Below the pieces are notes generated by a model. That model searched no databases and was not told the origin of the DNA. It worked only from the letters and a program-made list of their open reading frames with translations. The position numbers were made by a program, and so were the translations under genes. A stretch of DNA of 63,024 bases from Bacilli bacterium (GTDB taxonomy: Bacteria > Bacillota_I > Bacilli_A > ML615J-28 > CAG-313): assembly GCA_017937305.1 (NCBI GenBank), contig JAGBDV010000017.1, positions 1 to 63,024 of the forward strand, read 5' to 3'. Shown here piece by piece: positions 2,090 through 62,513 of this stretch (positions are counted from its first letter, which is position 1; each line of letters begins with the position of its first letter).

Positions 2090-3301
2090 ATGAGTAAAAT
2101 TATGGCAGTTAATGCTGGAAGTTCGTCTTTAAAGTTTCAATTATTAGAAATGACTAAAGCATCAGAAGTTGTTTTAACAGAAGGGATTTTCGAAAAAATT
2201 GGTCAACCTGAACCAATCTTTACTATTAAATACGATGGTAAAAAAGAAACTAAATTAGTTCCAGAAGTTAAAAATCATGGTGATAGCGTTGCTATGTTAT
2301 TAAATGCTTTAGTTGAAAAGGAAATTGTTAAAGATCTTAATGAAATTAAAGGTGTTGGCCACCGTATTTTACACTGTGGAGAAAAATATTCTGATTCAGT
2401 TATAATGAATGAAGAATCAATTGCAGTAGTTGAGTCTGTAAATGACTTAGGTCCACTACATAATCCTGCAAATTTAACAGGTGTTCGTGCATTTATGAAA
2501 GCACTTCCTGGTGTTGTTAATGTTGGTGTATTTGATACATCATTCCATTTATCTATGCCTGATGAAGCTTATATGTATGCATGTCCTTATGAATGGTATG
2601 AAAAATATTCAATTCGTAAGTATGGTTTCCATGGAACATCGCATAAATATGTATCACATAGAGCTGCTGAACTTTTAGGTAAACCGCTTGAAGAATTAAG
2701 AATTATTACTTGTCATATTGGTAATGGTGCTTCACTTGCTGCTGTTAAATATGGTAAAGTAGTAGAAACTTCAATGGGCCTTACACCACTTGATGGTTTA
2801 GTAATGGGTACAAGAAGTGGTACATTAGATCCAGCTGTTATTCAATTTATTTCAAATCATGAAAATCTTACAGCTGATGAAATTGTAAATATCTTAAATA
2901 AAAAATCTGGTTTCTATGGATTCACAGGTGGGCATAGTGATGCTCGTGAAGTAAGAGCTATGCAAGCTGAAGGTGATTACAAAGCAGATTTAATTTTAAG
3001 AATGCAAGAAAAGAGTATTGCAGATTATATCGGACAATACTTTGTATATATGGGTGGTGTTGATGCAATTATCTTCACTGCTGGTATTGGTGAAAAATCT
3101 CCTGAATGTCGTTTACATGTAGTCAATAGAATTAAAGAAGCTTTAAATATTGAAATTGATGAAAAAGTAAATGAAATTAAAGGTGAAGAATTAGAAATTA
3201 GTACTCCTAATTCTAAAGTTAAAGTATTAGTTGTTCCTACAAATGAAGAATTAATGATTGCTCGCGATTGTATCAGAGTAGGTAAAATAGAATTAGAATA
3301 A
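2090..3301 (+). CDS. ackA: Acetate kinase
   Basis: Converts acetyl phosphate and ADP to acetate and ATP, the last energy-yielding step of mixed-acid fermentation, in the cytoplasm. The 403-aa length is typical. Family signatures are the N-terminal NAGSSSLKFQL (residues 6-16), HIGNGASLAAVK in the middle, and MGTRSGTLDP. A GGAGG site lies 9 nt upstream of the ATG. No phosphate acetyltransferase gene is next to it, so that partner must be elsewhere. ftsZ begins 30 bp downstream with its own strong ribosome-binding site and no terminator between, which suggests co-transcription. Confidence 0.97.
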   Translation: MSKIMAVNAGSSSLKFQLLEMTKASEVVLTEGIFEKIGQPEPIFTIKYDGKKETKLVPEVKNHGDSVAMLLNALVEKEIVKDLNEIKGVGHRILHCGEKYSDSVIMNEESIAVVESVNDLGPLHNPANLTGVRAFMKALPGVVNVGVFDTSFHLSMPDEAYMYACPYEWYEKYSIRKYGFHGTSHKYVSHRAAELLGKPLEELRIITCHIGNGASLAAVKYGKVVETSMGLTPLDGLVMGTRSGTLDPAVIQFISNHENLTADEIVNILNKKSGFYGFTGGHSDAREVRAMQAEGDYKADLILRMQEKSIADYIGQYFVYMGGVDAIIFTAGIGEKSPECRLHVVNRIKEALNIEIDEKVNEIKGEELEISTPNSKVKVLVVPTNEELMIARDCIRVGKIELE

Positions 3302-3331
3302 GAATTAATAAATGATTAAGGAGGTCATAAC

Positions 3332-4438
3332 ATGGATCAACATGAAGAAATGTTTAGTGCCAAACCCGTAATTAAAGTTGTCGGTGTTGGTGGTGGCGGC
3401 GGAAACGCTGTAAACAGAATGATCGAAAATGACTTAAAAGGTGTTGAATATATTGTAATTAATACAGACTGCCAAGTGCTTCGTTTATCAAAAGCAGAAA
3501 ATAGAATTCAAATTGGCCGTAAACTTACTAAAGGTTTAGGTGCTGGTGCTGATCCTGAAATTGGAAAAGAAGCTGCTTTAGAAAATATTGAAGAAGTTAA
3601 GGCCGCTGTTGAAGGTGCTGATTTAGTATTTATTACTGCTGGTATGGGTGGTGGAACTGGTACAGGTGCTGCTCCTATCGTTGCAAAATGTGCTAAAGAA
3701 AATGGTGCGTTAGTTGTTGGTATCGTTACTAAACCATTTGGCTTTGAAGGTAGAAGAAGAATGCAACAAGCTATTAATGGTATTGAAGAAATGAAACCAT
3801 ATGTGGATACATTAGTAATTATTCCAAATGATAAATTATTAGAAATCATTGGTACAAATACTACTTATCTAGAAGCATTCAGTGAAGCTGATAATGTTTT
3901 AAGAAGAGGTGTTCAAGGTATTTCTGATATCATTAATTTACCTGGGTTAATTAATGTTGACTTTGCTGACGTCCGTACAGTTTTGAAAAATAAAGGTACT
4001 GCATTAATGGGTATTGGTATTGCTGCTGGCCCTAATCGTGCCGTTGAAGCTGCTAGAGAAGCTATTCAAAGTCCATTACTTGAAATTGATATTAATGGTG
4101 CTACTGATGCTATTGTTCAAATTACAAGTGACAAAGATATTACAATGCGTGAAATTGAAGAAATTGTTGCTGAAATTAGAAACGCATCTTCATCAGAAAT
4201 TGAAATCATTCATGGTACAGGTTTTAACCTAGATTTAAATGGTGAAGTTATTGTAACTGTTATTGCAACTGGCTTTGATAAGCCTAAAAAAGAGGGAGAC
4301 GAAAATCCTAACTATGTGCAACCACCAAAAGCTCAAAGAGAGCCAGAACCACAAGTTTCAGGTGGCGCAACAAATGAAAAAGAACCAGATCGTACTGAAA
4401 CTAAAGTACCAAGTTGGTTACAAAATCGTTTTAGATAG
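3332..4438 (+). CDS. ftsZ: Cell division protein FtsZ
   Basis: Tubulin-like GTPase that polymerises into the cytokinetic Z ring. The 368-aa protein has the tubulin signature [10 protein letters not shown] (residues 106-115), the upstream [11 protein letters not shown] nucleotide loop, the [12 protein letters not shown]7-loop region and a short charged linker. It ends in [10 protein letters not shown], a good match to the conserved C-terminal tail that binds FtsA, SepF and ZapA-type partners. It is preceded by GGAGG. Unusually it follows ackA, with no ftsA, ftsQ or mur genes beside it, so it has left the usual division and cell wall cluster. A strong terminator closes the pair. Confidence 0.97.
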
Positions 4439-9488: not shown

Positions 9489-10222
9489 TGGATGATAATA
9501 AAAGATTAGAGGAAGCTTTAAAACTTGCATTAGAAGATGTAGAAAAAGATAAAATAGGACTTCTTAAAGAACATACCTTACATAGAGTACTTAAGTTTTA
9601 TTTAAGTATTGATGAACAAAATCACGAAATTAAGATTGGTAGAATGTATGCAGATGTGGTACTTGATAATCATATTTATGAAATTCAAACAAAATCATTT
9701 AATGCAATGAGAAATAAACTAGAAGTATTTTTAAGAGACCATGAAGTTACGATATGCTATCCAATGGCTTTGAATAAAACTATTTATTTAACAAACGAGT
9801 ATGGAGAATTGGTTTCAACTAAGAAAAGTCCTAAACATGCAAGGCCTCTTGAGATATTTATTGAATTATATAAAATTAAAAATTACTTACTAAATCCCAA
9901 TCTTCATTTTAAAATCATTATGTTAGATATTGATGAGTTAAGAATTAAAAAAGAAAAGACATGGAGAAGTAGAAAAGGATTTGAAAGAACAAATCAAGTT
10001 CCTCGTAAAATAAATCATATATATGAAATAAATGGTCCTGATAATTTCAAAGATATTTTATTAGAATATAATTTAAAAGAGATATTTACTTCTAAAGATT
10101 TTGCAAAAAGCACTCATATCACAATTAAAAAAGCTACTGTTGCATTAAACGTTTTAACTTATTTAAATGTAGTAGAAAGAATTGGAAAAGAAAAAAACAG
10201 TTATTTATACAAAATTGTATAG
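9488..10222 (+). CDS. Predicted PD-(D/E)XK-type nuclease with C-terminal winged helix
   Basis: Not a named family that I can recall. Residues 40-95 look like a PD-(D/E)XK nuclease core: GRMYADVVLDNHIYEIQTK gives D56, E65 and Q67. The E-x-Q form of the motif is seen, for example, in CoiA-type nucleases. The C-terminal 70 residues (EIFTSKDFAKSTHITIKKA onwards) resemble a winged helix that separates an N-terminal catalytic part from a DNA-reading part. The middle is rich in Lys and Arg. It ends inside a terminator. The function is inferred: DNA cleavage or repair; a non-catalytic DNA-binding role is possible. Confidence 0.55.
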   Translation: MDDNKRLEEALKLALEDVEKDKIGLLKEHTLHRVLKFYLSIDEQNHEIKIGRMYADVVLDNHIYEIQTKSFNAMRNKLEVFLRDHEVTICYPMALNKTIYLTNEYGELVSTKKSPKHARPLEIFIELYKIKNYLLNPNLHFKIIMLDIDELRIKKEKTWRSRKGFERTNQVPRKINHIYEINGPDNFKDILLEYNLKEIFTSKDFAKSTHITIKKATVALNVLTYLNVVERIGKEKNSYLYKIV

Positions 10223-13373: not shown

Positions 13374-14108
13374 ATGAGTGATTTTGAATATCAAATTCCT
13401 GATACATATGAAGAAGCTGTCGCAAGAAAAGCTGAAGTTTTAAAGTTAATTAATGAGTATAATGAAGCATTACTTTTAGATAAAGAACTACCATGTAGTG
13501 AAGAAGAAATTGATCGCTTACAAGAAGAATATCAAATTTTAAATGACCATCTAGAATTAACTGATGAAGAAAAATTAGAAAAATTAAAAGATTCTGATAA
13601 AGAAATTAATGAAGATGGTGTAGTAGTAGAAAAGATTTCTGTATTTGATAAAATACATTGGGGAATTTTTATATATATAGTATTTACATTTATTGCGCTT
13701 TGCTCAATGCTATTTTTAACTAAACTTGTAGGTCAAGCTGGTATTAATTCTTATATTAGTAAATTTTTATCTGACTGTTTATGGGAGCATAATATTGACA
13801 TGTTAGAGCTTGAAAAAAGTGAATTTATGTGGACTCCATTTGATTTTTGGTCAAGAGTTGCATTAAGTTATCTTTGGTTACCATTAGTACTTATTTTAGT
13901 TTCTGTAGTTGTTTATTTCTTATATTATAGAAAACATGATTTAAACACAAAAATTGCAAAATGGCTAATCTTTATAAATATATTTATTTTTGTATTATCA
14001 ATTGGAGTAGTATTATTACAAGGAGAAATTAAAGTTTTACAAGAACGTTTTGAGTATTTATGGTATGAATATGCTGAATACTATTATACAGAAATGGGTT
14101 CATACTAA
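13374..14108 (+). CDS. Membrane protein with acidic N-terminal coil, unknown function
   Basis: Not recognised. Residues 1-90 are strongly acidic and helix-forming (many Glu/Lys, leucine-spaced), probably a cytosolic coiled coil. Three hydrophobic segments follow at about 98-118, 163-186 and 196-218. The ending is Tyr- and Glu-rich. It is followed after one base by the RNA methyltransferase gene, which has almost no ribosome-binding site of its own, so the two are probably coupled. Confidence 0.6.
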   Translation: MSDFEYQIPDTYEEAVARKAEVLKLINEYNEALLLDKELPCSEEEIDRLQEEYQILNDHLELTDEEKLEKLKDSDKEINEDGVVVEKISVFDKIHWGIFIYIVFTFIALCSMLFLTKLVGQAGINSYISKFLSDCLWEHNIDMLELEKSEFMWTPFDFWSRVALSYLWLPLVLILVSVVVYFLYYRKHDLNTKIAKWLIFINIFIFVLSIGVVLLQGEIKVLQERFEYLWYEYAEYYYTEMGSY

Positions 14109-14109
14109 T

Positions 14110-14865
14110 ATGATTAAAGAAATTACATCTGTTAATAATACATATATAAAAGAATTATTATCATTAAGAGATAAACAAGTAAGAAATAATACTAATCTAT
14201 TTGTTGTTGAAGGGTATCATTTAGTAGAAGAAGCCTTAAAACATCATGTTTTAAAGGTAGCATTATGTACTGATAAAGAAGTTTTGGAAAAATTAAATGT
14301 TGATGAAAAGTATTTAGTTAGTGAACAAGTTATTAAAAAACTATCATCTACTAAAACACCACAAAACATTATTGGTGTAGTAAATTCGATAACTAATCAA
14401 GATTTAGAAAGTATTATTTCTAAGAATAAATTAAGATTAGTTATACTTGATAATGTCAATGATCCAGGTAATCTTGGTACTATCATCAGAACTAGTGCTG
14501 CTCTTGGAATTGATGCAGTAATATCAAGTTTAGAAACTGTTGATTACTATAATGATAAAGTGCTAAGAGCTACACAAGGAGCAATCTTTAAGATTCCTTT
14601 ATTTAAAATGAATTTAAATGAAGTATTACCATTATTAAAAGATAATAATATTATAGTTTATGGTACTCATTTGGAGTCATCAATTAGCATAAAAGAAGTA
14701 GAAAAAAAAGATAAACTAGCAATAGTACTGGGAAATGAAGCTAAAGGAGTTAGTAAAGAAGTACTTGATCTTTGCGATAGGAATGTTATCCTTCCTATGG
14801 ATAATGATGTTGAAAGTTTAAATGTAAGTATTGCTGCTGCACTACTTATGTGGGAATTAAAATAA
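14110..14865 (+). CDS. TrmH/SpoU-family RNA 2'-O-methyltransferase
   Basis: SPOUT-class enzyme that methylates a ribose in rRNA or tRNA using S-adenosylmethionine. The 251-aa protein has an N-terminal substrate-binding region, then motif 1 NVNDPGNLGTIIRTSAALG, and the knotted C terminus with IVLGNEAKGVS and LPMDNDVESLNVSIAAALLM. The start is the ATG at 14110 (MIKEITSVNN); the longer in-frame extension overlaps the upstream gene and does not fit the family. The exact target nucleotide cannot be assigned. Confidence 0.9.
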   Translation: MIKEITSVNNTYIKELLSLRDKQVRNNTNLFVVEGYHLVEEALKHHVLKVALCTDKEVLEKLNVDEKYLVSEQVIKKLSSTKTPQNIIGVVNSITNQDLESIISKNKLRLVILDNVNDPGNLGTIIRTSAALGIDAVISSLETVDYYNDKVLRATQGAIFKIPLFKMNLNEVLPLLKDNNIIVYGTHLESSISIKEVEKKDKLAIVLGNEAKGVSKEVLDLCDRNVILPMDNDVESLNVSIAAALLMWELK

Positions 14866-30840: not shown

Positions 30841-31001
30841 AAAAAAGGAGCAATTTGCTCCTTTTTATATTTTACCATCTTGCAGTACCGATAATTACTA
30901 ATAAAATAAATAAAACAAGAATTAAAGCGTAGCCATAACCACCAAAGTTGCTACCGCATGAAGTTTGTTGTTGACAACATCCATATCCATAGTTAGGTTG
31001 A
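30841..31001. repeat. 161-bp direct repeat, left copy
   Basis: Nearly identical to 39289-39449. I see two differences, one a one-base swap in the hairpin loop region and the other G/A at 30957 against the right copy. The repeat contains a terminator (GGAGCAAATTTGCTCC-like stem with T run) and all but the first three codons of a yjcZ-type gene. Identity stops abruptly at 31001. It marks the left boundary of the accessory island. Confidence 0.95.
30872..31001 (-). pseudogene. Start-less copy of the yjcZ-type spore gene
   Basis: This copy reads in the same frame as the intact gene at 39320-39454 but has lost its ribosome-binding site and first three codons. Beyond 31001 the frame continues with unrelated codons and reaches a stop immediately after an ATG, so no workable start exists. 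It is the 3' part of the gene left at the island edge. Confidence 0.9.
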
Positions 31002-31059
31002 AACGTGCTCTTCTCAGTTTACATTTTGATATCCATAATGATGAATATAAATAACTAAT

Positions 31060-31207
31060 ATATTTTATGTGCCATAATTTAAGAAAACGGCTGCAATAGG
31101 GGCTATACTAATTAGCCCCTATGCAGCGTACTTAACTTAAATTTAAATACTAGTTAAGATATTAGTTTAATACTAATTAAGAGCAATTGTTAGGCACAAT
31201 AAAATTT
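31060..31207. other. Multi-hairpin element near the left island edge
   Basis: TGTGCC (31068-31073) pairs with GGCACA (31193-31198), with extra A/T pairing outside. Inside is a strong hairpin, 31090-31105 with 31113-31127 (15 pairs and one bulged A; GGGGC core), then two weaker stems near 31131-31180. It could fold as a three-way-junction RNA or, as DNA, a short cruciform or MITE-like remnant. No gene lies in 31002-31430; the rest of that stretch is AT-rich with nothing that I recognise. Confidence 0.5.
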
Positions 31208-31430
31208 AGAATTAAAATAAATGTTAGTAAGAGTAGGTTTATAAATAAAAAAATTAATTATAGTTATTATTTTTTTTAAGATTTTATAGCTCAAATTTTT
31301 AATACAGTTTATAACATTTATGAATAAATAATCTAATAAGTAAGAAAAATAAATATCAAATATAATTTGATTATATAGTTTGCATGAGTATGAATGATTT
31401 GGTAAAATATTATTAGAAAGAGGTGTTCTT

Positions 31431-33080
31431 ATGCATATAAATGATTTAATAAAACAAGATGTAAATATTTTTTTAAATGAAATTAATTCCCTTCAAACTA
31501 TAGAAGGAAATATGGAATTTATTAAAATTGTTTATTCATTATGTATTAACTTTTATAATGTAGATTATAAAGAAGGTGGAAATTTAAATTATAAGTATGA
31601 TAGTTTTCACGATAAGATTATTGGTGATAATTTAGACAATAAAACTAATCCATTTGTAGTTGCAAGATTACATCATTATTTATTTTATAATAAGAGTATA
31701 AAGCTTAATGAGGGGAAAATTGCTTATAATAATTATTTAAAATGTATATCTAAAGAAAATGATTTTGAATTTAATTGTTCATGCCTTTTTTCAGCATATT
31801 ATATTTATTGTAAATTAGGTAAACAATTTGATGTAAAAGAATTAAAACAACTAATCCAAAATATTAGTTATCAAGTTAATAGTAATGATAATGCGTTTGC
31901 ACTTCATTTTTATAATTTATTACTAGATTTAGAATTAATTGATTTAGAAGAACTGCTAAGTATATGTGATGGTAAAATGAACACACATATAATAAACCAT
32001 TCTAATATTTTTGATGGATATTATAACTTAAAAAAATTAATATACAAAGTAAAAATAGAAAAAAAATTGATTACTCATTCACAGTATTTAGAATATTTAA
32101 AAAGTCATAAACTATTTAAGGCAGATTTATATTATGCACTTGCACAACAAACAGATATTTCATACTCTAAAGAATACTATTTAAAAATATGTATTAAGGT
32201 ATATAAAGAATGTCAGCAAGAAAATTCAGAAAAATTTTTCAGTGCTAAGGAAATGCTTGATGAGTGTGAAAAAGAAAATTTAAATAATATGAAAATATCT
32301 AGTACATCGATTAATAGTAGTAAATTATTTAATATTTTTAAAGAGAAGGTAGATAGTTATACTGAACAACAAAATTTATTTTTTTTATTATTTTTTATGC
32401 CTATTATTAGTCAAACTAGAACTGAAGAGATTTTCAAAAAAAATATAATAAATCGTGACACAGTAAAATACTTTTCAACAGCATTAATGAATTCTGAAGG
32501 TAAAACAATAGCAATTATTCCTCCATTTGATGATAATGATGAAGAAATAGTTAATATGTACACTATATTAACCGCTGTTTTTGAAACAAAAGTTAAAGGA
32601 CAATATATTTTATATTTAATAAATTTAATAAAGAAAAAACACCCTAATATAATTAAACTAATTAATGATATAATAGATAATACTAGTATTATTAAGGAAA
32701 AGAATAAACATTTAGTAAAAAAGGGTTTTTATTATTGTATATTTGAAGATTTTGATTGTGGTATGTCTATTTTAATACCTCAGATAGAATCAAGTATTAG
32801 AAATTTAGCGCATTTTTGCGGTGTTTCTACATATACTTTAAATCAGGATAATACTGAAACGTTTAATACATTGTCATCAATTATAGAAAGAGAATCATTT
32901 GTAAATATAATAGATGAAGATGTTGTTTTTAACTTGCGTTTTATTTTTGATTCAAAATATGGCTTAAATTTACGTAATAATTTTGCTCATGGATTTATTA
33001 GTAATTTTAATAAGTCTGAAAATTACTATGCTATGTGGTTTTATTTGGTAATTATTTATATGTATTCTAAATTGAATTAG
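31431..33080 (+). CDS. HEPN-type protein, DUF4209-like
   Basis: A 549-aa, Asn/Lys/Ile-rich, mostly helical protein. The C-terminal part looks like the DUF4209 domain: ILIPQIESSIRNLAHFCG, and then LRNNFAHGF near the end. R515-x4-H520 fits the HEPN ribonuclease motif R-x4-6-H. Such proteins are found in phage-defence islands and act as RNases in abortive infection; that role is inferred here. AGAGGTG precedes the ATG. It stands alone, with its own upstream region, next to a restriction-modification operon. Confidence 0.6.
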   Translation: MHINDLIKQDVNIFLNEINSLQTIEGNMEFIKIVYSLCINFYNVDYKEGGNLNYKYDSFHDKIIGDNLDNKTNPFVVARLHHYLFYNKSIKLNEGKIAYNNYLKCISKENDFEFNCSCLFSAYYIYCKLGKQFDVKELKQLIQNISYQVNSNDNAFALHFYNLLLDLELIDLEELLSICDGKMNTHIINHSNIFDGYYNLKKLIYKVKIEKKLITHSQYLEYLKSHKLFKADLYYALAQQTDISYSKEYYLKICIKVYKECQQENSEKFFSAKEMLDECEKENLNNMKISSTSINSSKLFNIFKEKVDSYTEQQNLFFLLFFMPIISQTRTEEIFKKNIINRDTVKYFSTALMNSEGKTIAIIPPFDDNDEEIVNMYTILTAVFETKVKGQYILYLINLIKKKHPNIIKLINDIIDNTSIIKEKNKHLVKKGFYYCIFEDFDCGMSILIPQIESSIRNLAHFCGVSTYTLNQDNTETFNTLSSIIERESFVNIIDEDVVFNLRFIFDSKYGLNLRNNFAHGFISNFNKSENYYAMWFYLVIIYMYSKLN

Positions 33081-33188
33081 AATTTAATATTTTTTCATAT
33101 TCATATTTATAATCAAATTTAAAATACTAAAACACTACCATTTTATTGTTAAATGTGATATAATAAGTTCACGAAAGGAGTGTATGAT

Positions 33189-34034
33189 ATGAAGAAAAAG
33201 AATAATGCTTTAGTTATGCCTGTTGTAAAATGGGTAGGTGGCAAACGACAATTATTGGATGAACTTAAAAAATATACTCCTAATAGAATTAGTACGTATT
33301 TTGAACCATTCTTCGGTGGAGGTGCGAACTTATTTGCAATTCAACCTAAAAATGCTGTTATTAATGATCTAAATGGAGATTTAGTAACTACATATAGAGT
33401 TATTAAAGATAAAGTGGAAGAATTAATTGAAAAGTTAAAAGTTCATGAAGCAAATAATACTGAAGAATATTTCTATCAAATTAGAGATTTAGATAGAAAA
33501 TCTTCAACATATGATGCACTTGATGATGTTGAAAAAGCAGCTAGATTAATCTACTTAAATAAAACTTGTTATAATGGTTTATTTAGAGTAAATAGTTCTG
33601 GACAATTTAATACACCATATGGAAAATATAAGAATCCTAATATTGTTAATGAAGTAGTTTTACGAGCAGTAAGCAAATACTTTAATGATAATAACATTCA
33701 GATATTAACTGGTGACTTTGCAGATGCAGTCGCTAATGCTCAAAAGGGAGATTTCGTATATCTAGATCCTCCATATGACCCAGTTTCAAATACTGCAAGT
33801 TTTACAGGTTACAATGAAGGTGGATTTAATAAAAAAGAACAAGAAAGATTAAAACTTGTTTGTGATGAGTTAAATAAAAGAGGTGTTAAATTCTTATTGT
33901 CTAATTCTAATACAGAATTTATAAACAATTTATATAAAGGATACGACATTATTATTGTGAAAGCAAAACGTTCTATCAACTCAAATGGTAACAAACGTGG
34001 TGAAGTTGAAGAAGTGTTAATTAAGAATTTCTAA
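33189..34034 (+). CDS. DNA adenine methylase, DpnM/Dam type
   Basis: Class alpha (D12) N6-adenine methyltransferase, 281 aa. The AdoMet motif is VKWVGGKRQLL near the N terminus and the catalytic motif is DPPY at 193-196, followed by the F-T-G-Y-N-E-G-G-F segment. Relatives such as DpnM, Dam and M.MboI methylate GATC; that site is likely but not proven. The ATG at 33189 has AAAGGAG 8 nt upstream, and a TATAAT box lies about 25 bp before that. The restriction enzyme starts 2 bp downstream. Confidence 0.88.
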   Translation: MKKKNNALVMPVVKWVGGKRQLLDELKKYTPNRISTYFEPFFGGGANLFAIQPKNAVINDLNGDLVTTYRVIKDKVEELIEKLKVHEANNTEEYFYQIRDLDRKSSTYDALDDVEKAARLIYLNKTCYNGLFRVNSSGQFNTPYGKYKNPNIVNEVVLRAVSKYFNDNNIQILTGDFADAVANAQKGDFVYLDPPYDPVSNTASFTGYNEGGFNKKEQERLKLVCDELNKRGVKFLLSNSNTEFINNLYKGYDIIIVKAKRSINSNGNKRGEVEEVLIKNF

Positions 34035-34036
34035 TT

Positions 34037-35320
34037 ATGGCTGAAAGTTTTTTAAATACTGCGTGGAACCAATTATTTGAAAAGTATAGCATTCTTGATG
34101 TCGTACGAGAACATGGTAATTTTATTATTACTGCTAAACAAATCAAAGAGTTTAGAGAACCACGTTTAATGACTAAGTTTGACCATTCGGAAAATTTACC
34201 TGAAATATTTAAGAAAAATGATTTATCAATAATGCCAATATCCCGAAATGACTTTATAATTTCTAACCATCAAATGTTTAGTGAATTAAAAGAAATTAAT
34301 CAAGATATTATTAAAGTTGAATTTCCAAATTATATTCAAAGTATTGTACCTGCTAAAATTACAAGTGAAGCTATAGCATTAAACTGCGCATACTTAACAG
34401 GAATGCTAGAAGACTTTTTAGAAGATGAACAAATTGTTCCAACAGTAAGCGGCAGAATGGCATCAAGTAAGTTTTCTTTTGAGATTCTTAATACATCAAC
34501 AAAAAACTATGATGAAGTTCAAGTTGAAAATTCTCAAATTGAAATTGATGGAGCATATGAAGGTATTAATTATTTAAGTTTAGTTGAAGCAAAAAGAAAT
34601 ATAAATACTGACTTTTTAATTAGACAATTATACTATCCATATAGATTATGGATTAGTAAAGTTGATAAGAAAGTTAAGGTTATTTATTTTGTATATAGTA
34701 ATGATATTTTTAGTTTCTTTGAATATCAATTTGATGATTCTAACAAGTATAATAGTTTAAGATTAATTAAACAAAAGAATTATTCTTTAGAAGATATCGC
34801 AATTACATTTAAAGATATTACTGATATATCAGATAAAATTGAATACATTGATGAACCTGAAATACCATTTCCGCAAGCTGATTCTTTTAAAAGGGTTATT
34901 AACTTGTGTGAATTAATTAATGATAGTGAAGTGACAGCTGAAAAGATAACTGAAGAATTTGAATTTGATCCAAGACAAACTCAATATTATACAAGGGCTG
35001 CAATGTATTTAGGATTGATTGATAAATGTTCAGAAGGAAAATACGTAACATATAAATTATCTGCTATTGGTAAAGAAATAATGAAGATGAAATACGTACA
35101 AAGACAACTAGAATTTGTTAAGTTAATTCTTTCTCATAAAGTATTCCATATTTCATTTGTTCAATACCTATATGCTGGAAGACAACTTTCTAAAAAAGAA
35201 GTTGTTGCATTTATGAAAGAATGTAATTTGTATCATATTGAATCTGAAGAAACATTTGGAAGAAGAGCAAGCACTATAATTTCATGGATTAATTGGATTA
35301 TTAGTATTGTTCAAGAATAA
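34037..35320 (+). CDS. Predicted type II restriction endonuclease (PD-(D/E)XK)
   Basis: A 427-aa protein with a PD-(D/E)XK core: IEIDGAY gives D171, and LVEAKRN gives E184 and K186, 12 residues apart. The C-terminal third (from about 290) looks like winged-helix repeats (SEVTAEKITEEF; ALYKER-type motifs absent), which may read DNA. It is translated immediately after the adenine methylase and before a second methylase, the usual place for the cognate nuclease. It does not resemble DpnB/MboI-type GATC endonucleases as I remember them, so specificity is open. Confidence 0.75.
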   Translation: MAESFLNTAWNQLFEKYSILDVVREHGNFIITAKQIKEFREPRLMTKFDHSENLPEIFKKNDLSIMPISRNDFIISNHQMFSELKEINQDIIKVEFPNYIQSIVPAKITSEAIALNCAYLTGMLEDFLEDEQIVPTVSGRMASSKFSFEILNTSTKNYDEVQVENSQIEIDGAYEGINYLSLVEAKRNINTDFLIRQLYYPYRLWISKVDKKVKVIYFVYSNDIFSFFEYQFDDSNKYNSLRLIKQKNYSLEDIAITFKDITDISDKIEYIDEPEIPFPQADSFKRVINLCELINDSEVTAEKITEEFEFDPRQTQYYTRAAMYLGLIDKCSEGKYVTYKLSAIGKEIMKMKYVQRQLEFVKLILSHKVFHISFVQYLYAGRQLSKKEVVAFMKECNLYHIESEETFGRRASTIISWINWIISIVQE

Positions 35321-35349
35321 TATTAAAAAATTTATAAATAAAAAAAGCA

Positions 35350-35393
35350 AAAACACACCTTTCTGCTAATTATATAAGTAGGAGGTGTGTTTT
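35350..35393 (+). promoter_or_regulatory. Perfect inverted repeat overlapping the ribosome-binding site of the second methylase
   Basis: AAAACACACCT (35350-35360) pairs perfectly over 11 bp with AGGTGTGTTTT (35383-35393), with a 22-nt loop. The right arm takes in the last part of the AGGAGG ribosome-binding site and ends one base before the ATG at 35394. It could hide the site in mRNA, or be a protein operator. It has no T run, so it is not an ordinary terminator. Confidence 0.7.
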
Positions 35394-36101
35394 ATGTTAT
35401 ATAACGATGATTGCATTAAAGTAATGCAGAAAATAAAAAATGAGTCTGTTGACGTGGTGTTTGCAGACCCCCCATACTTTCTTTCTAATGGGGGTAAAAG
35501 TATTTCAAGTGGTAAAATTGTTTCAGTAAATAAAGGTGAATGGGATAAAAAGGAAAACTATGGTGATATTAAGAAGTTCACAAAAGACTGGATAAGTGAA
35601 TGCTATAGATTATTAAAGAAAAAATGTAGCATATGGATTAGTGGTACTCATCATAACATATTTGATATTAAACAAGCTTTAGATGAGGTAGGTTTTAAAA
35701 TAGTTAATATTATAATATGGAAAAAACTTGATCCACCACCATTAATCTATAAAAATAAATGTAGGTTTTCATATGAATTTATTATATGGGCAGATAAAGG
35801 GTTTGGCCATGTATTTAATTATGAGCAAATGTTTAGTATAAGCAATAATGAACTTGAAGATGTATGGGTATTACCTGCAGTATCAATGAATGAGAAAAAG
35901 TATGGTTATCATCCAACACAAAAACCAGAGTGTTTGCTTGAAAGAATTATAAAAGCATCCACAACTGAAGGGCAATTAGTTTTAGACCCATTTATGGGAA
36001 GTGGAACGACAGGGGTTGTATGTAAAAGGTTAAATAGGAAATTTATAGGAATTGAGAAGGAAAAAACATATTTTTTAATATGTGAAAAACGATTAAAATA
36101 A
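35394..36101 (+). CDS. DNA methyltransferase, DpnA type
   Basis: Class beta amino-methyltransferase, 235 aa, with the catalytic motif near the N terminus (ADPPYFLSNGG, DPPY at 25-28) and the AdoMet motif near the C terminus (VLDPFMGSGTTGVV). It is similar throughout to Streptococcus DpnA, which methylates GATC also in single-stranded DNA and protects incoming transformed DNA. It is shorter at the N terminus. The ATG at 35394 follows AGGAGG, partly held in an inverted repeat. It completes a methylase-nuclease-methylase set; the order differs from the methylase-methylase-nuclease DpnII operon. Confidence 0.85.
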   Translation: MLYNDDCIKVMQKIKNESVDVVFADPPYFLSNGGKSISSGKIVSVNKGEWDKKENYGDIKKFTKDWISECYRLLKKKCSIWISGTHHNIFDIKQALDEVGFKIVNIIIWKKLDPPPLIYKNKCRFSYEFIIWADKGFGHVFNYEQMFSISNNELEDVWVLPAVSMNEKKYGYHPTQKPECLLERIIKASTTEGQLVLDPFMGSGTTGVVCKRLNRKFIGIEKEKTYFLICEKRLK

Positions 36102-36294
36102 AATATGTAGATTGTAATAAATAATTTAAAACTTTGTATATTTAATTTATTTGTGATACAATAAAAATACGTATTTTAGTAGTATGACAATAAAAAATAC
36201 TCATTTATTGACTTTGATTTAGAGGGCTAATAGTGAAAATTAAAAAAGTTCTTAATTAGCAGAAACAAATATCTATAAAATTGGAGATAGATGT

Positions 36295-36357
36295 ATGAAT
36301 GATGTATTTTATAAATTAGATAAATCAGGTGAATATAAATACTATTTTTTGAAATAG
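36295..36357 (+). CDS. 20-codon leader frame before the kinase gene
   Basis: A short frame encoding MNDVFYKLDKSGEYKYYFLK, with GGAG about 8 nt upstream. Its stop TAG overlaps the ribosome-binding site of the kinase gene, 9 bp before that start. It could be a leader peptide that couples translation, or the leftover start of a deleted gene. The 36102-36294 stretch before it holds a plausible TTGACT box and no larger gene. Confidence 0.4.
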   Translation: MNDVFYKLDKSGEYKYYFLK

Positions 36358-36366
36358 GTGGTACTT

Positions 36367-37809
36367 ATGGATTTTAAAGGAAAAAAAACAGAATATAAAA
36401 AGCAAAAAGGAAATTCTCAAAGAGAGGGTGGAAGTGGTTATGTTTATTTTGTTGAAAACGAAATAGGAGATAAATTTGCAATAAAACAATTAAAAATGGT
36501 TGTTAAGGAACATAAAATAAATAGTTCTAAAAAAAATAGATTTTTGAAGGAACTAGAATTTCAAAAAAACGCCAAATGTAAATATATCGCTAAAATAATT
36601 GATGAAAGTTTTGACTTAGAAAATGAAATCTTTTATGTTATGAGACAATACAAATGTAATTTTAGAGAATTAATGATTAATAATATTCCGAAAAAGAAAA
36701 TGATGAAATATATTTTAAATATATGTGAAGCTCTAAAATATATAGGGAAAAAGGGGATAGTTCATAGAGATATTAAACCTGAAAACATATTGTATGACTC
36801 TGTTAATGATATAGTGGTTTTATCAGATTTTGGAATAAGTCATTTTCCTGATCAAAATATTACTGATGGTGAAAGATTGGCTAATTTTAATTATCATGCA
36901 CCTGAGCAAAAAGAAAAAAATGAAAGTGAAATTGGAACGCATACAGATATTTTTGCATTAGGATTGATTATTAATGAAATATTTACTGGTGATATACCTC
37001 AAGGAAAAGATTATAAAAAGATAAAAGATTGCTATCCAGAATATTATTATTTAGATGAAATTGTAGCAATAATGATTCAAAGCGACATTGAAAAACGAGA
37101 AAAGAATATTGAAAACATAATTAAGTTAATAAAGAGCGAAAAAAGAATGGCTAAAGATTTGGTGACAGAAATCAGTGATTTCGCTAAAAGTGAGATTAAT
37201 AAATTAGATGTAAAAAATAAATCTAAATTAATAAAACAAGTAGAACAAGATTTATTAAAGGGGTATTTGTATCAAATTAATGAAATAAAAGAGAAAAATG
37301 TAAATCCAAATTATCATTGCAATGTTTCTTATTCATTAGATAGGCTATTTATAGACTCTATTAAATTAGTAGATATATATTTATTGTGTGAAAAAAAATT
37401 TAATTATGAAAGTAACATTTATGAAAAAGATAATTTTTACGATCAATTAAATTATAAAGAACAGGAACATCTTGAATTGTACAACAAATTTATTGAAATT
37501 TTATCAAAATTAAAATTTTATAAAGATTATGAATATTTAGAAAAACGCTCTTTAAAATTGTTTTCTTCATTATGCGATTATCATGCTCGTGAGATTATAG
37601 AAGATGCAACAAAAATAATCGAAAAAATATATGAAGAATATATTGATGCACCGTTATTTTGGATAATATTACATTTAGATAAATACAAGTCATATTTGTC
37701 TATTGATAATAAAGACTTTTATATTTTTATATATCTTTCGATTACTGAATATCATACAAATAGTGTAATCGAACAAGATAATTATTATTCTATTGATTTT
37801 TATAAATAA
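36367..37809 (+). CDS. Serine/threonine protein kinase of the Hanks type
   Basis: A 480-aa soluble kinase. Residues about 15-265 are the kinase domain: glycine loop GGSGYVYFV, FAIKQLK with the ATP-binding lysine, catalytic HRDIKPEN (H133-N140) and DFGIS. The C-terminal 215 residues are an unrecognised, Lys/Glu/Tyr-rich helical region, without the PASTA repeats or membrane segment of housekeeping PrkC. Kinases of this cytosolic type occur in defence islands; that role is inferred from the neighbours. The ATG at 36367 has AGGTGG upstream; the GTG at 36358 lies in that site. Confidence 0.85.
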   Translation: MDFKGKKTEYKKQKGNSQREGGSGYVYFVENEIGDKFAIKQLKMVVKEHKINSSKKNRFLKELEFQKNAKCKYIAKIIDESFDLENEIFYVMRQYKCNFRELMINNIPKKKMMKYILNICEALKYIGKKGIVHRDIKPENILYDSVNDIVVLSDFGISHFPDQNITDGERLANFNYHAPEQKEKNESEIGTHTDIFALGLIINEIFTGDIPQGKDYKKIKDCYPEYYYLDEIVAIMIQSDIEKREKNIENIIKLIKSEKRMAKDLVTEISDFAKSEINKLDVKNKSKLIKQVEQDLLKGYLYQINEIKEKNVNPNYHCNVSYSLDRLFIDSIKLVDIYLLCEKKFNYESNIYEKDNFYDQLNYKEQEHLELYNKFIEILSKLKFYKDYEYLEKRSLKLFSSLCDYHAREIIEDATKIIEKIYEEYIDAPLFWIILHLDKYKSYLSIDNKDFYIFIYLSITEYHTNSVIEQDNYYSIDFYK

Positions 37810-39288: not shown

Positions 39289-39449
39289 AAAAAAGGAGCA
39301 AATTGCTCCTTTTTATATTTTACCATCTTGCAGTACCGATAATTACTAATAAAATAAATAAAACAAGAATTAAAGCGTAGCCATAACCACCAAAGTTGCT
39401 ACCACATGAAGTTTGTTGTTGACAACATCCATATCCATAGTTAGGTTGA
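39289..39449. repeat. 161-bp direct repeat, right copy
   Basis: Partner of 30841-31001. Here the repeat is followed without interruption by the start codon and ribosome-binding site of the yjcZ-type gene, so this copy is in the native context. It includes the terminator of that gene (39291-39315). Confidence 0.95.
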
Positions 39450-39454
39450 TACAT
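39320..39454 (-). CDS. YjcZ-type small hydrophobic spore protein, 44 aa
   Basis: A Gly/Tyr/Cys-rich start (MYQPNYGYGCCQQQTSCG) is followed by GGYGYALILVLFILLVIIG and a short TARW ending. This is the layout of the YjcZ/YtrH-like sporulation peptides of Bacilli: a polar head and a single membrane helix. AAAGGAGGTGG lies upstream of the ATG. Its 3' part is duplicated at the other end of the island. The role is not established; such proteins are reported in spores. Confidence 0.85.
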   Translation of the reverse strand: MYQPNYGYGCCQQQTSCGSNFGGYGYALILVLFILLVIIGTARW

Positions 39455-58888: not shown

Positions 58889-60349
58889 ATGAACTTATTT
58901 TTAACTACAGAGGGAGAATTAAGTTGGGACTTTACGATGGCTAATTATGATGCTGTTTGGTCTTTCTTAGTTCAAATTGGTTTATTATTTATTTTCTTAA
59001 TGTTAGGTAATATTTTACGTCGCAAAATTCCACTATTTAGAAAGATTTTAATTCCTTCTGCATTATTAGGTGGTGCATTACTATTATTAGTTGATTTTAT
59101 ATGTAAACAAATTGGTTTTACTTTAGTAAATAACAGAATGATGCAAGTAATTACTTATCACTGTTTAGCATTTGGTTTTGCTGCTATGTCTTTAAAAACA
59201 GAAAAAGCTACTCATAAAACTAATAAAACTCAAGTGTTAGAATTTGGTGCTTTACAAGGTGGAACATATATGCTTCAAGCTTTTGTTGGCTTAGGTATAA
59301 CAATTGTGTTATTCTTATTTACAAAACATGGAGATAATATAATTTCATATGTTTGTGGATTAATCTTGCCTCTTGCATTTGGCCAAGGACCTGGGAATGC
59401 ACTTAGTTGGGATATTAACTTTACAAATACACCTGCTGCAATGTTTTCTGGAAATGGTAGCTTTGGATTATCGCTTGCTTCTATTGGATTTGTTGTTGCT
59501 TCAGTAATAGGTGTATTATACATTAACGTTCATCAAAAACGTGGAGATCTAAAAGTTAGAGAATGTATAACAAATAATCAAAATAGTGAAGTTGAAGATT
59601 CTTCTAATATTGAAATTCCTGATAATGAATCTGTGGATAAGTTTACTATTCAAGCTGGATTTGTTGCAATAGCATATGCTTTATCATTTGGCTTTATGTA
59701 TTTACTAGGTATTATTTCTAATTTTACTAATAGTATTGCTTGGGGGTTTAACTTCTTATGGGCATCACTTTTTGCAATGTTAATTAAGTTTGTAGTTAAA
59801 CAGTTACGTAAACGCAAAGTGATGAATAGGGTATATATTAATAACTATCAAATGGATAGAATATCTGGATTTGCTTTTGATATAATGATCGTTGCTGGAG
59901 TATCTGCTATCGAGATTAATGATATTAGAAATTATATTGTTCCTATTATTATCTTAAGTGTAATAGGTGCACTAATTACTCATTTATATATTAGAAAAGT
60001 ATCGAAAGAATGTTTTAAAGGATTTGAACATGAATTTTATCTAATGAGTTTTGGTACTTTAACTGGTACTGCATCAAATGGTATGATTCTTATGAAAGAA
60101 GTAGACCCAGGGCTTAAAACTCCTACTTCAAGTTTATATATTTTATCAAACTTTCCTGCAATGGTTATGATTGCGCCACTTTTATTCCTACTTGGCTTTG
60201 CAGGTAAATCATTAACGAACGCAATTATCGCTTGTTGTATTTTCTTTGTATTATGGTTAGTTTATTCAATATTCTTATTTAGAAGAAAAATCTTCAAAAA
60301 ACATTATAAAGATAAACCTGTTGTAGAATGGGATGACGAAAAAGAATAA
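58889..60349 (+). CDS. gltS: GltS-type sodium/glutamate symporter
   Basis: A 486-aa transporter with about ten to twelve hydrophobic segments in two halves. The N-terminal region (IGLLFIFLMLGNILRRKIP) and the glycine-rich re-entrant loops (GLILPLAFGQGPGNALSW and LTGTASNGMILMKEVD) match the GltS family, which takes up glutamate with sodium. It is longer than E. coli GltS (401 aa) owing to a polar loop in the middle (about 205-250). AGAGGTG precedes the ATG. It ends 15 bp before a terminator that is duplicated downstream of the fic gene. Confidence 0.85.
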   Translation: MNLFLTTEGELSWDFTMANYDAVWSFLVQIGLLFIFLMLGNILRRKIPLFRKILIPSALLGGALLLLVDFICKQIGFTLVNNRMMQVITYHCLAFGFAAMSLKTEKATHKTNKTQVLEFGALQGGTYMLQAFVGLGITIVLFLFTKHGDNIISYVCGLILPLAFGQGPGNALSWDINFTNTPAAMFSGNGSFGLSLASIGFVVASVIGVLYINVHQKRGDLKVRECITNNQNSEVEDSSNIEIPDNESVDKFTIQAGFVAIAYALSFGFMYLLGIISNFTNSIAWGFNFLWASLFAMLIKFVVKQLRKRKVMNRVYINNYQMDRISGFAFDIMIVAGVSAIEINDIRNYIVPIIILSVIGALITHLYIRKVSKECFKGFEHEFYLMSFGTLTGTASNGMILMKEVDPGLKTPTSSLYILSNFPAMVMIAPLLFLLGFAGKSLTNAIIACCIFFVLWLVYSIFLFRRKIFKKHYKDKPVVEWDDEKE

Positions 60350-60364
60350 AATAAATATATTAAA

Positions 60365-60447
60365 ATCATCACTTGCATATAATGAAAGTGGTGATTTTTT
60401 TATAAATACTTTTTAGTTGTTATAAAAGGGTTAGGTATGACGATATG
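60365..60447. repeat. 83-bp direct repeat, left copy, with the gltS terminator
   Basis: Nearly the same as 61662-61744. It starts with the gltS terminator (ATCATCAC with GTGGTGAT, 60365-60396, then seven T) and runs through ATAAATACTTTTTAGTTGTTATAAAAGGG. By eye there are about six to seven differences, mostly in the last 20 bp. It lies to the left of the fic gene. Confidence 0.9.
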
Positions 60448-60471
60448 TTTAACATAAATAGTTTAAAATAA

Positions 60472-60502
60472 AAAATAAAGTGCAATTTTTGCACTTTATT
60501 TT
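60472..60502 (+). promoter_or_regulatory. Perfect 14-bp inverted repeat before the fic promoter
   Basis: AAAATAAAGTGCAA (60472-60485) pairs perfectly with TTGCACTTTATTTT (60489-60502); 3-nt loop. The TGCACTTTA unit occurs again directly after it (60503-60511), overlapping the -35 box. It could be a terminator of upstream read-through or a repressor operator. Confidence 0.7.
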
Positions 60503-60530
60503 TGCACTTTAAAATTATTTGTGGTATAAT
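60502..60530 (+). promoter_or_regulatory. Promoter of fic
   Basis: TTGCAC (60502-60507) and TATAAT (60525-60530) with a 17-bp spacer, 24 bp before the ATG. The -35 box touches the inverted repeat. Confidence 0.8.
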
Positions 60531-60554
60531 AAGTTCAGAAAAGGAGAATTTATT

Positions 60555-61583
60555 ATGGATTTTGAAAAATATAAAAAAGAATCTCCCCAAAAATATAAAA
60601 AAGCATATGCTTGGCAAACTGCAATTGGTCTACAAAAAGTAGATGATTTAACGCCTTCAACATATTTATATGAAATTGCTGAAAGAAATATAGATGATGA
60701 TTTATCATTCGAAGAAGCTCATAGGTTGATTAACTCTTACTATTTAGAAAAACCTAAAGATAATGATCGAACTGAAGAAGCAGATAAAGTAAGTGTAAGA
60801 ATCGCAGAACTTGTTGCTTCTAATAGTTTTGTTTTTTCTCCAGTTGAATATATAAATATTCATAAACAGTTATTTGAAGGTATTTATGAAAATGCTGGTC
60901 AAATAAGAAATTATAATATTTCAAAAAAAGAATGGGTTTTAGATGGTGATACTGTTACATATGGTAATGCTTATAATTTGAGAGATCTTTTAGAATACGA
61001 TTTTCAGCAAGAAAAAGAATTTAGTTATCGTCATTTAACAAAAGAAGACTTTATTAAACATATTGCAAAGTTTATAAGTAATTTATGGCAAATACATGTT
61101 TTTGGTGAAGGAAATACTAGAACAACTGCTGTTTTTTTAATTAAATATTTAAATACAAAAGGGTTTGATATAAATAATGATCTTTTTGCAAAACATTCAT
61201 GGTATTTTAGAAATGCATTAGTTAGAGCTAATTATTCAAACTTTTTGTTAGGTATTGAAGAAACAGCTGATTACTTAGAAATGTTTTTAGAGAATTTATT
61301 GTTTAATAGTAATCACGTCTTAAGCAATAAAAAATTACATGTATCATATAAAGATTCTTCTAATGAATTTGTAGATTTAAGTGATATAGAAAAAGAAATA
61401 ATAAATATAATAAGAGATAATCAGAATATCACTATCGAAGAATGCTCTAAAAAAATTAATAGATCTATTAGAACTACAAAAGAAATTTTTAAGAAATTAA
61501 AAGAAAAAAATATTATCGAAAGAGTTGGTTCAAAGAAAACAGGCTGTTGGGGCATAAAATATAATCAGAGTTTAAAAAATTAA
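60555..61583 (+). CDS. fic: Fic-family protein with N-terminal VbhA-like segment
   Basis: A 342-aa protein. The Fic active-site loop is HVFGEGNTR (181-189), which fits HxFx(D/E)GNxR and predicts AMP transfer to Ser, Thr or Tyr of a target protein. Residues about 35-70 (LSFEEAHRLINSYYLEKP) look like the inhibitory antitoxin helix of VbhA/class II Fic proteins, with S-x3-E. A winged helix (SKKINRSIRTTKEIF) stands at the C terminus, so DNA-binding self-regulation is likely. The ATG at 60555 has AAAGGAG upstream. The gene lies between two 83-bp repeats, in a single-gene cassette. Confidence 0.88.
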   Translation: MDFEKYKKESPQKYKKAYAWQTAIGLQKVDDLTPSTYLYEIAERNIDDDLSFEEAHRLINSYYLEKPKDNDRTEEADKVSVRIAELVASNSFVFSPVEYINIHKQLFEGIYENAGQIRNYNISKKEWVLDGDTVTYGNAYNLRDLLEYDFQQEKEFSYRHLTKEDFIKHIAKFISNLWQIHVFGEGNTRTTAVFLIKYLNTKGFDINNDLFAKHSWYFRNALVRANYSNFLLGIEETADYLEMFLENLLFNSNHVLSNKKLHVSYKDSSNEFVDLSDIEKEIINIIRDNQNITIEECSKKINRSIRTTKEIFKKLKEKNIIERVGSKKTGCWGIKYNQSLKN

Positions 61584-61661
61584 CTTGATGTTTGGAAATA
61601 ACTATATATTGAGTAAAAAAATTAAACAAATATCAGATAAAAAGAATATAAAAATATAATT

Positions 61662-61744
61662 ATCATCACTTGCATATAATGAAAGTGGTGATTTTTTTAT
61701 AAATACCTTTTAGTTGTTATAAAAGGGTCGGGCGTGACGGGATG
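61662..61744. repeat. 83-bp direct repeat, right copy, with terminator
   Basis: Partner of 60365-60447. The hairpin ATCATCAC/GTGGTGAT plus T run is unchanged and can end the fic transcript. The last 20 bp differ by being richer in G and C (GGGTCGGGCGTGACGGG). Confidence 0.9.
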
Positions 61745-62063
61745 ACTAGCAAATATATATAAATACAATAAGATGAATATTATCCTATATGGATAGTATT
61801 TATTTTTTTAGTAAAAAATTCAATAAAAGGGTTAAATAAATAACCCAAAAATTTAACTTTATTGATGAACAGAAGCATTCAAAATACTTGAAAATGATGA
61901 ATTATAATTGTATAATAACATTAAATGTAAAGTAAATAAAAAACAATTACAATATCTCGAAAATGAAGAAACAACTTATAATTTTGAGGTTAAGGAAAAA
62001 CCCATGAAGAATGGGTTAAATATTGGATTAATTCATTGTTTGAATAAAGGAAAGAAAATTATT
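61745..62063. other. Non-coding or weakly coding 320-bp stretch
   Basis: AT-rich with small inverted repeats (for example GGGTTA/TAACCC near 61829-61846). A reading frame running into the next gene begins with a TTG at 61908 without a ribosome-binding site; I do not see a convincing gene here. Confidence 0.4.
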
Positions 62064-62513
62064 ATGAAGAAATACTATTTTGAATCGTTTTTTAAAAGTT
62101 TAGTTTATTTATTTATATCATTTTATATAATAGGACAAATAGTTTTATGTTTTTTTGCTGATGAAATTCATGCAGGAGTTATATTTGTTTTAACGATTCT
62201 TTTTTCAAGTTTAGTAGTAATTTTATTTTGGTTTGGATTTAGTCTTTCAATGAGAATACAAATTGATTATGAAAAAAAAGAATTATATATTAAACATCCG
62301 CGCCTCTTAAAAAAAATAAAATTTGAAGATATTATATCAATTCAAATAATTGATTATAATGAAGTAGCTTTTGAGTTTGTTATTAGAACTACAAATTTTT
62401 CGAAACAAATTCCTTATGCAAGATATTTACGCCGAAGTCCAAATGAAAAAATTAGAAGTAAATTAAATGAATTAAAAAAAGATTTTATGGATACTTCTAA
62501 TAAAAAATATTAA
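62064..62513 (+). CDS. Two-helix membrane protein with PH-like domain
   Basis: A 149-aa protein from the ATG at 62064. Two membrane segments (about 10-32 and 38-62) precede a roughly 75-residue beta-rich part (RIQIDYEKKELYIKHPRLLKKIKFEDIISI) that resembles bacterial PH-like domains. The start is uncertain: another ATG at 62004 has AAGGA 7 nt upstream and would add 20 residues. Function unknown. Confidence 0.5.
   Translation: MKKYYFESFFKSLVYLFISFYIIGQIVLCFFADEIHAGVIFVLTILFSSLVVILFWFGFSLSMRIQIDYEKKELYIKHPRLLKKIKFEDIISIQIIDYNEVAFEFVIRTTNFSKQIPYARYLRRSPNEKIRSKLNELKKDFMDTSNKKY

Follow-up and report, generated by a model that had tools for sequence, protein, structure and literature searches.

What placed a single fic gene between two direct repeats near the end of this 63,024-nucleotide stretch of a Bacilli genome (the window), and does the same process explain a larger island at 30.8 kb? 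The reading that we favor, with a probability of about 0.62, is that fic belongs to a tandem series of cassettes occupying an attachment site within the murC 5' end (codons 9/10), and that the array was built by Ccr-type elements whose recombinases have since been lost. The window (own genome, G000) was compared with loci L035 and L036 of the sister genomes G001 and G002, respectively; all genomes compared are metagenome assemblies, and the murC site was seen in three sisters only, one of them empty.

The 83-bp direct repeat lies at 60365-60447 and 61662-61744 (9 mismatches, spacing 1297), and repeat alignment and open reading frames confirmed the preliminary description of a single fic gene between the two copies. 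The copies match exactly over 45 bp, differ at one position, match exactly over another 21 bp and end in a more divergent 16-bp tail, past which similarity is weak. Since the copies differ, the repeat is no collapsed-repeat assembly artifact; a dispersed repeat was also ruled out, as a search of the own genome returned two strong matches only (E = 5e-65 and 1e-31; next E = 0.007). Each copy holds a hairpin and T-run (folding energies −14.6 and −12.0 kcal/mol; z = −4.9 and −4.0). The core of copy 1 (60365-60429, + strand) comprises the hairpin, with TATAAT in its loop, and decayed murC codons 1-9 that have lost the ATG, and has an intact counterpart in L036; the tail past this murC-like core (60430-60447, + strand) has about two-thirds of its bases in common with copy 2. 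The core of copy 2 (61662-61726, + strand), likewise hairpin and decayed murC codons 1-9, departs from copy 1 in 1 of 65 aligned columns. The last ~28 bp of the core correspond to the murC start, decayed to AAATAC.TTTTAGTTG..AT.AAAGG, where the intact protein begins MKYYLVGIKG. Because the L036 hairpin adjoins the murC ATG, the repeat is evidently a hairpin plus the decayed first ~9 codons of murC, more than a terminator of the upstream gene. The left repeat had been taken for the gltS terminator; a hairpin does follow the gltS-like gene, but the repeat is not the terminator alone, as it includes the murC start. That gene (58889-60349, + strand), a predicted membrane transporter and the host gene left of the hotspot, has orthologs adjoining murC in L035 and L036, and is called gltS-like here, no Pfam or NCBIfam match having been found for the name. 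With TATAAT in its loop, the hairpin may have two roles, ending transcription of the upstream gene and serving murC as promoter or leader.

The fic gene (60555-61583, + strand) encodes a Fic domain (Pfam PF02661, 2e-12) and a winged HTH, with the HxFx[D/E]GN motif present as HVFGEGNTR. Its product matches the PADLOC candidate defense family PDC-S72 (3e-132), and fic is treated here as a predicted candidate defense gene. An ortholog with 79% identity occupies the same site in L035, and orthologs were found in 3 of 43 genomes of the order. It is the sole gene between the repeat copies, with no mobility, integrase or transfer gene; the lack of a mobility gene, noted earlier for both window loci, was borne out at each. 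Tandem GTGCAA palindromes upstream of fic (60472-60515), conserved in L035, are likely an operator to which the Fic protein's HTH would bind, and together with a TATAAT box form a probable promoter/operator (60472-60530, + strand). To the right of copy 2 comes the next element, first its conserved left end (61727-61810, + strand), which closes with a small hairpin/T-run and is common to the AbiE element of L035, and then a cargo open reading frame of 201 aa with no assigned function (61908-62513, + strand). The window thus reads gltS-like gene, repeat copy 1, fic, repeat copy 2 and a further cassette, and its contig ends 1.3 kb past copy 2 without reaching murC; a search of the own assembly (72% complete) did not find that gene. 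No tRNA gene adjoins the array in the window, and the fic protein, hairpin and element-end patterns, searched for signs of phage carriage, had no match in IMG/VR.

The comparison of empty sites proposed in the preliminary description yielded one empty sister: in L036 the gltS-like gene is followed by the hairpin and by a murC-family ATG at the end of the T-run, with a single copy of the repeat (murC-family gene: TIGR01082, E = 1e-77, below the equivalog cut-off). In L035, the order is gltS, a DUF3990 gene, a 270-aa open reading frame, fic, a murC remnant, AbiEi/ii, the hairpin and an intact murC, with a more decayed hairpin remnant after gltS. The cargo between repeats differs between the sisters, in agreement with its earlier description as accessory. 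On this comparison, the 5' end of murC is a hotspot with different cargo in each genome, and small defense-type genes appear to be repeatedly gained and lost there in several related gut bacteria. The murC-family gene is probably needed intact, since G001 and G002 each yielded a single copy.

The junctions within murC are fixed to the base. In the three well-preserved remnants (both window copies and the L035 remnant), murC similarity ends after AAAGG; the region that follows was considered as more of a divergent murC and rejected, the aligned copies showing that similarity stops there. The ~85 bp after the breakpoint are common to repeat copy 2 and the L035 remnant (score 46.5 against a shuffle maximum of 21.5), and different cargo stands behind this common element end in the window and in L035 (AbiE). 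For the flank after copy 1, similarity to other element ends was not above shuffles. In G013, which belongs to another genus of the same family, the right edge of an element interrupts the murC ortholog at codon 9/10, and the ortholog restarts at ATG-CCT-ATA after the interruption. This element carries three consecutive serine recombinases (545, 514 and 201 aa), whose best NCBIfam matches, CcrB/XisF, fall below the cut-offs. GG is common to all murC junctions (window copies, L035 remnant and G013). Large serine recombinases act at a two-base core, and the common GG fits such a core at the sequence level. An imperfect dyad (12/24) formed by arms from G013 and the window, equaled by 5 to 62 of about 10,560 contig windows over the several lengths tried, weakly suggests a common attP. 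A search for the attL partner in G013 gave two pattern matches only, both inside unrelated genes, and no attR-type junction was seen at the window or G001 sites.

The island at 30.8 kb shows the same layout of repeat and accessory cargo, as the preliminary description had claimed. Its 164-bp repeat consists of the terminator and 42 of 44 codons of yjcZ: the remnant (30841-31004, − strand) ends at ..TAGGTTGA, and an intact yjcZ (44 aa, YjcZ family) with its terminator forms the right edge of the island (39289-39454, − strand). Between them lie a conserved non-coding left end (31005-31260, + strand), with three relatives in G002, and cargo (31431-37809, + strand) encoding a DUF4209 protein, a type II restriction enzyme with two methyltransferases, and a protein kinase. 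Full-length yjcZ remnants of the window and G002 (two species) end at TAGGTTGA, an end also kept by those remnants in G001 and G002 that carry internal deletions, and two G002 elements have non-coding ends conserved with those of the window island. Because the buried G002 copy has the same terminator as the working G001 gene, and the working G002 gene has another, the functional yjcZ body and its terminator are apparently supplied by the element. A Ccr-like serine recombinase (432 aa, below NCBIfam cut-offs) is encoded in the G002 island; the window island has restriction-modification genes and the kinase and no recombinase. Recombinases of the cassette-chromosome type are therefore found at both spots in relatives, in G013 at murC and in G002 at yjcZ. 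The window array holds no recombinase gene and the 72% complete own genome no PF07508 (Recombinase family) match; two non-core-looking tyrosine recombinases on contig C14 of the own genome show no link to the murC or yjcZ site.

According to the favored reading, elements with a large Ccr-type serine recombinase would insert between murC codons 9 and 10. In the genus of the window, each insertion would leave a dead hairpin and murC codons 1-9 upstream, with a working hairpin and murC 5' end at the right edge of the array, the hairpin being copied because it abuts the murC start codon. Later arrivals would enter the working copy, so that old 5' ends accumulate as remnants between cargo genes, and loss of the recombinase genes would leave an integrase-less, CIME-like array whose remnant repeats recombine, being homogenized while cargo is deleted or swapped. 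Elements at yjcZ would likewise insert at a fixed 5'-end point, with the working gene end and hairpin at the outer edge. A recombinase of the Ccr-type class would have made the fic insertion, and the working murC 5' end would have come with an element; we infer both the inserter of fic and the time of its insertion. Counting against this reading are the window array's lack of a recombinase gene, the attR-type junction and attL partner that were looked for and not seen, the dissimilar flank after copy 1, the weak dyad, and the signs of recombination given next.

The murC 5' ends themselves bear on this sequence of events. Comparison of the intact genes of L035 and L036 gave 5 differences in the 27 bases of codons 1-9 against 44 in 1242 thereafter (Fisher P = 0.003), and the L035 remnant is identical to the L036 murC start at 26 of 27 bases; for these reasons, the working L035 start appears to have arrived later and to have replaced an older start, now the remnant. 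Recombination has acted as well. Eight differences, the lost ATG among them, set repeat copies 1 and 2 jointly apart from the three other copies compared, and their present likeness therefore most likely reflects homogenization by recombination between remnants, not directly the insertion. Identity between G001 and G002 is ~96% in most of the region and falls to ~82% over a block that starts upstream of gltS and stops at murC codon 9; since this ~18% divergence begins that far to the left, ordinary homologous exchange of the gltS-side block has acted too. The exchanged block (L035:7380-12490 versus L036:7380-7560) ends at the insertion point.

Shared lesions in the window repeats and exchange of the block around the site are also the grounds for a recombinase-independent array, which we regard as unlikely if still credible. 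Single defense genes would then come and go by homologous recombination between hairpin-murC remnants alone, the dead 5' ends acting like integron att sites without an integrase, beside a murC kept intact. A somewhat less likely rival relies on homologous recombination only, with no site-specific step: a linear or circular donor with cargo and a hairpin-murC piece would integrate by crossing-over, either within the repeat or within neighboring genes. The derived lesions common to both copies speak for it, as does a diverged block of several kilobases over gltS and the array that was exchanged between close sisters, yet it leaves unexplained why remnants stop at one base, why the element edge in another genus falls at that same base and why element ends are conserved. 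More doubtful again is insertion with long target duplication, in which cargo would move by an unspecified process independent of known recombinases, leaving ~100 bp of target duplicated. Such insertion has been proposed for some restriction-modification units, with target duplications described as long, variable and around 100 bp in size (PMC3874152), and both the duplications here (65-164 bp, no mobility gene) and the cargo (restriction-modification and toxin-antitoxin-like) are fitting; against this, breakpoints recur at one base per site at murC and yjcZ, where variable duplications and no fixed att junction would be expected, element ends are conserved between different cargo, and recombinase-bearing relatives exist at both sites.

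The preliminary description had proposed that a system recognizing intrinsic terminators inserts cargo behind them, explaining both loci. Every repeat does contain a hairpin and T-run, but the breakpoints lie inside gene 5' ends, ~30 bp (murC) or >100 bp (yjcZ) from the hairpin, and the repeats run into coding sequence (murC codons 1-9; 42/44 yjcZ codons). The genome-wide collection of terminator duplications that it called for was carried out on a 458-kb sample of the own genome (395 kb from two contigs, in stretches), in which few non-coding repeat pairs were found outside one array. Terminator targeting is therefore very improbable, and the tempting idea that terminators themselves are the target needs correction. 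Hardly tenable, too, is tandem copying of the hairpin in place or misassembly with fic between by chance, for although this is a metagenome-assembled genome with a contig end 1.3 kb further on, the copies differ at 9 positions and an independently assembled sister has the same architecture with other cargo.

With an array built by Ccr-type elements as the preferred reading, the locus can be set against known systems. The ssrA islands of Dehalococcoides lie in tandem between repeats of the end of that essential gene, some with a serine-recombinase module and 15 without an integration module, the latter read as possibly cis-mobilizable (PMC3146451); the tandem layout between gene-end repeats is shared here, whereas the target there is the 3' end of ssrA with a 20-bp repeat and here the murC 5' end plus hairpin (about 65 bp). 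The Enterococcus cassette chromosome has Ccr-type serine recombinases and ~50-bp direct repeats at a host gene, and this cassette and SCCmec resemble our loci in Ccr-type recombinases (here in relatives), several att sites and variable accessory cargo (PMC6222049). SCCmec differs in its site, the rlmH 3' region, and the recombinases of our relatives fall far below the NCBIfam Ccr cut-offs, with none in the window array. Classification as SCC was rejected: the window array and the 72% complete own genome hold no Ccr genes (PF07508), and insertion is at the murC 5' end, not the 3' end of rlmH. CIMEs are att-flanked DNA without integration or transfer genes that grow by tandem accretion (PMC5704250). 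Att-type repeats of which one copy is part of the host gene, no integrase or transfer gene, and tandem stacking (a remnant, two cargo blocks and an intact gene in L035; two remnants and a further cassette in the window) are all present; no ICE or IME was found beside the murC array, where mobilization in cis would be putative. We class the locus as a CIME-like array of cassettes that occupies a new site.

Islands that target dusA, and SXT at prfC, replace the 5' end of their gene (PMC8409611), as would the elements here; they use other recombinases in proteobacterial hosts, and single-gene cassette arrays are not described in that source. Here an element may have supplied the N-terminus: L035 murC is intact with a diverged 5' end, and the G013 gene restarts at ATG-CCT-ATA. 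Restriction-modification units with long target duplication also resemble these loci (~100 bp duplicated, no mobility gene, similar cargo; PMC3874152), but the murC and yjcZ loci have fixed breakpoints, conserved ends and recombinase-bearing relatives. The murC and yjcZ sites would offer uncultured gut Bacilli a route for collecting small defense genes (fic, AbiE, DUF3990, restriction systems), and the 5' ends of the two genes are usable as search keys for more cargo.

Similar arrangements occur elsewhere in the own genome. On contig C12 (136000-144380, loci L169-L170), small genes with no assigned function stand between 150-250-bp non-coding repeats, each with a hairpin and a tRNA/tmRNA-like 3' end (..GGGTTCAATCC..TCCACCA); a tmRNA gene lies 3 kb off, and relatives are present in L189:2183-3945. 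This looks like another att-type cassette array. On contig C10, a 60-bp non-coding repeat (2709-2768 and 4036-4095) surrounds one lipoprotein-like gene (3051-3974), possibly another single-gene cassette; a tRNA-Arg pair on C10 that scored as a repeat proved to be two ordinary tRNA genes. Another non-coding repeat on C12, of ~290 bp (9607-9952 and 14053-14406), encloses a pyrrolidone-carboxylate-peptidase-like gene, a large lipoprotein and a RhuM-like gene; G001 and G002 also carry a RhuM-like gene among their yjcZ-site cargo.
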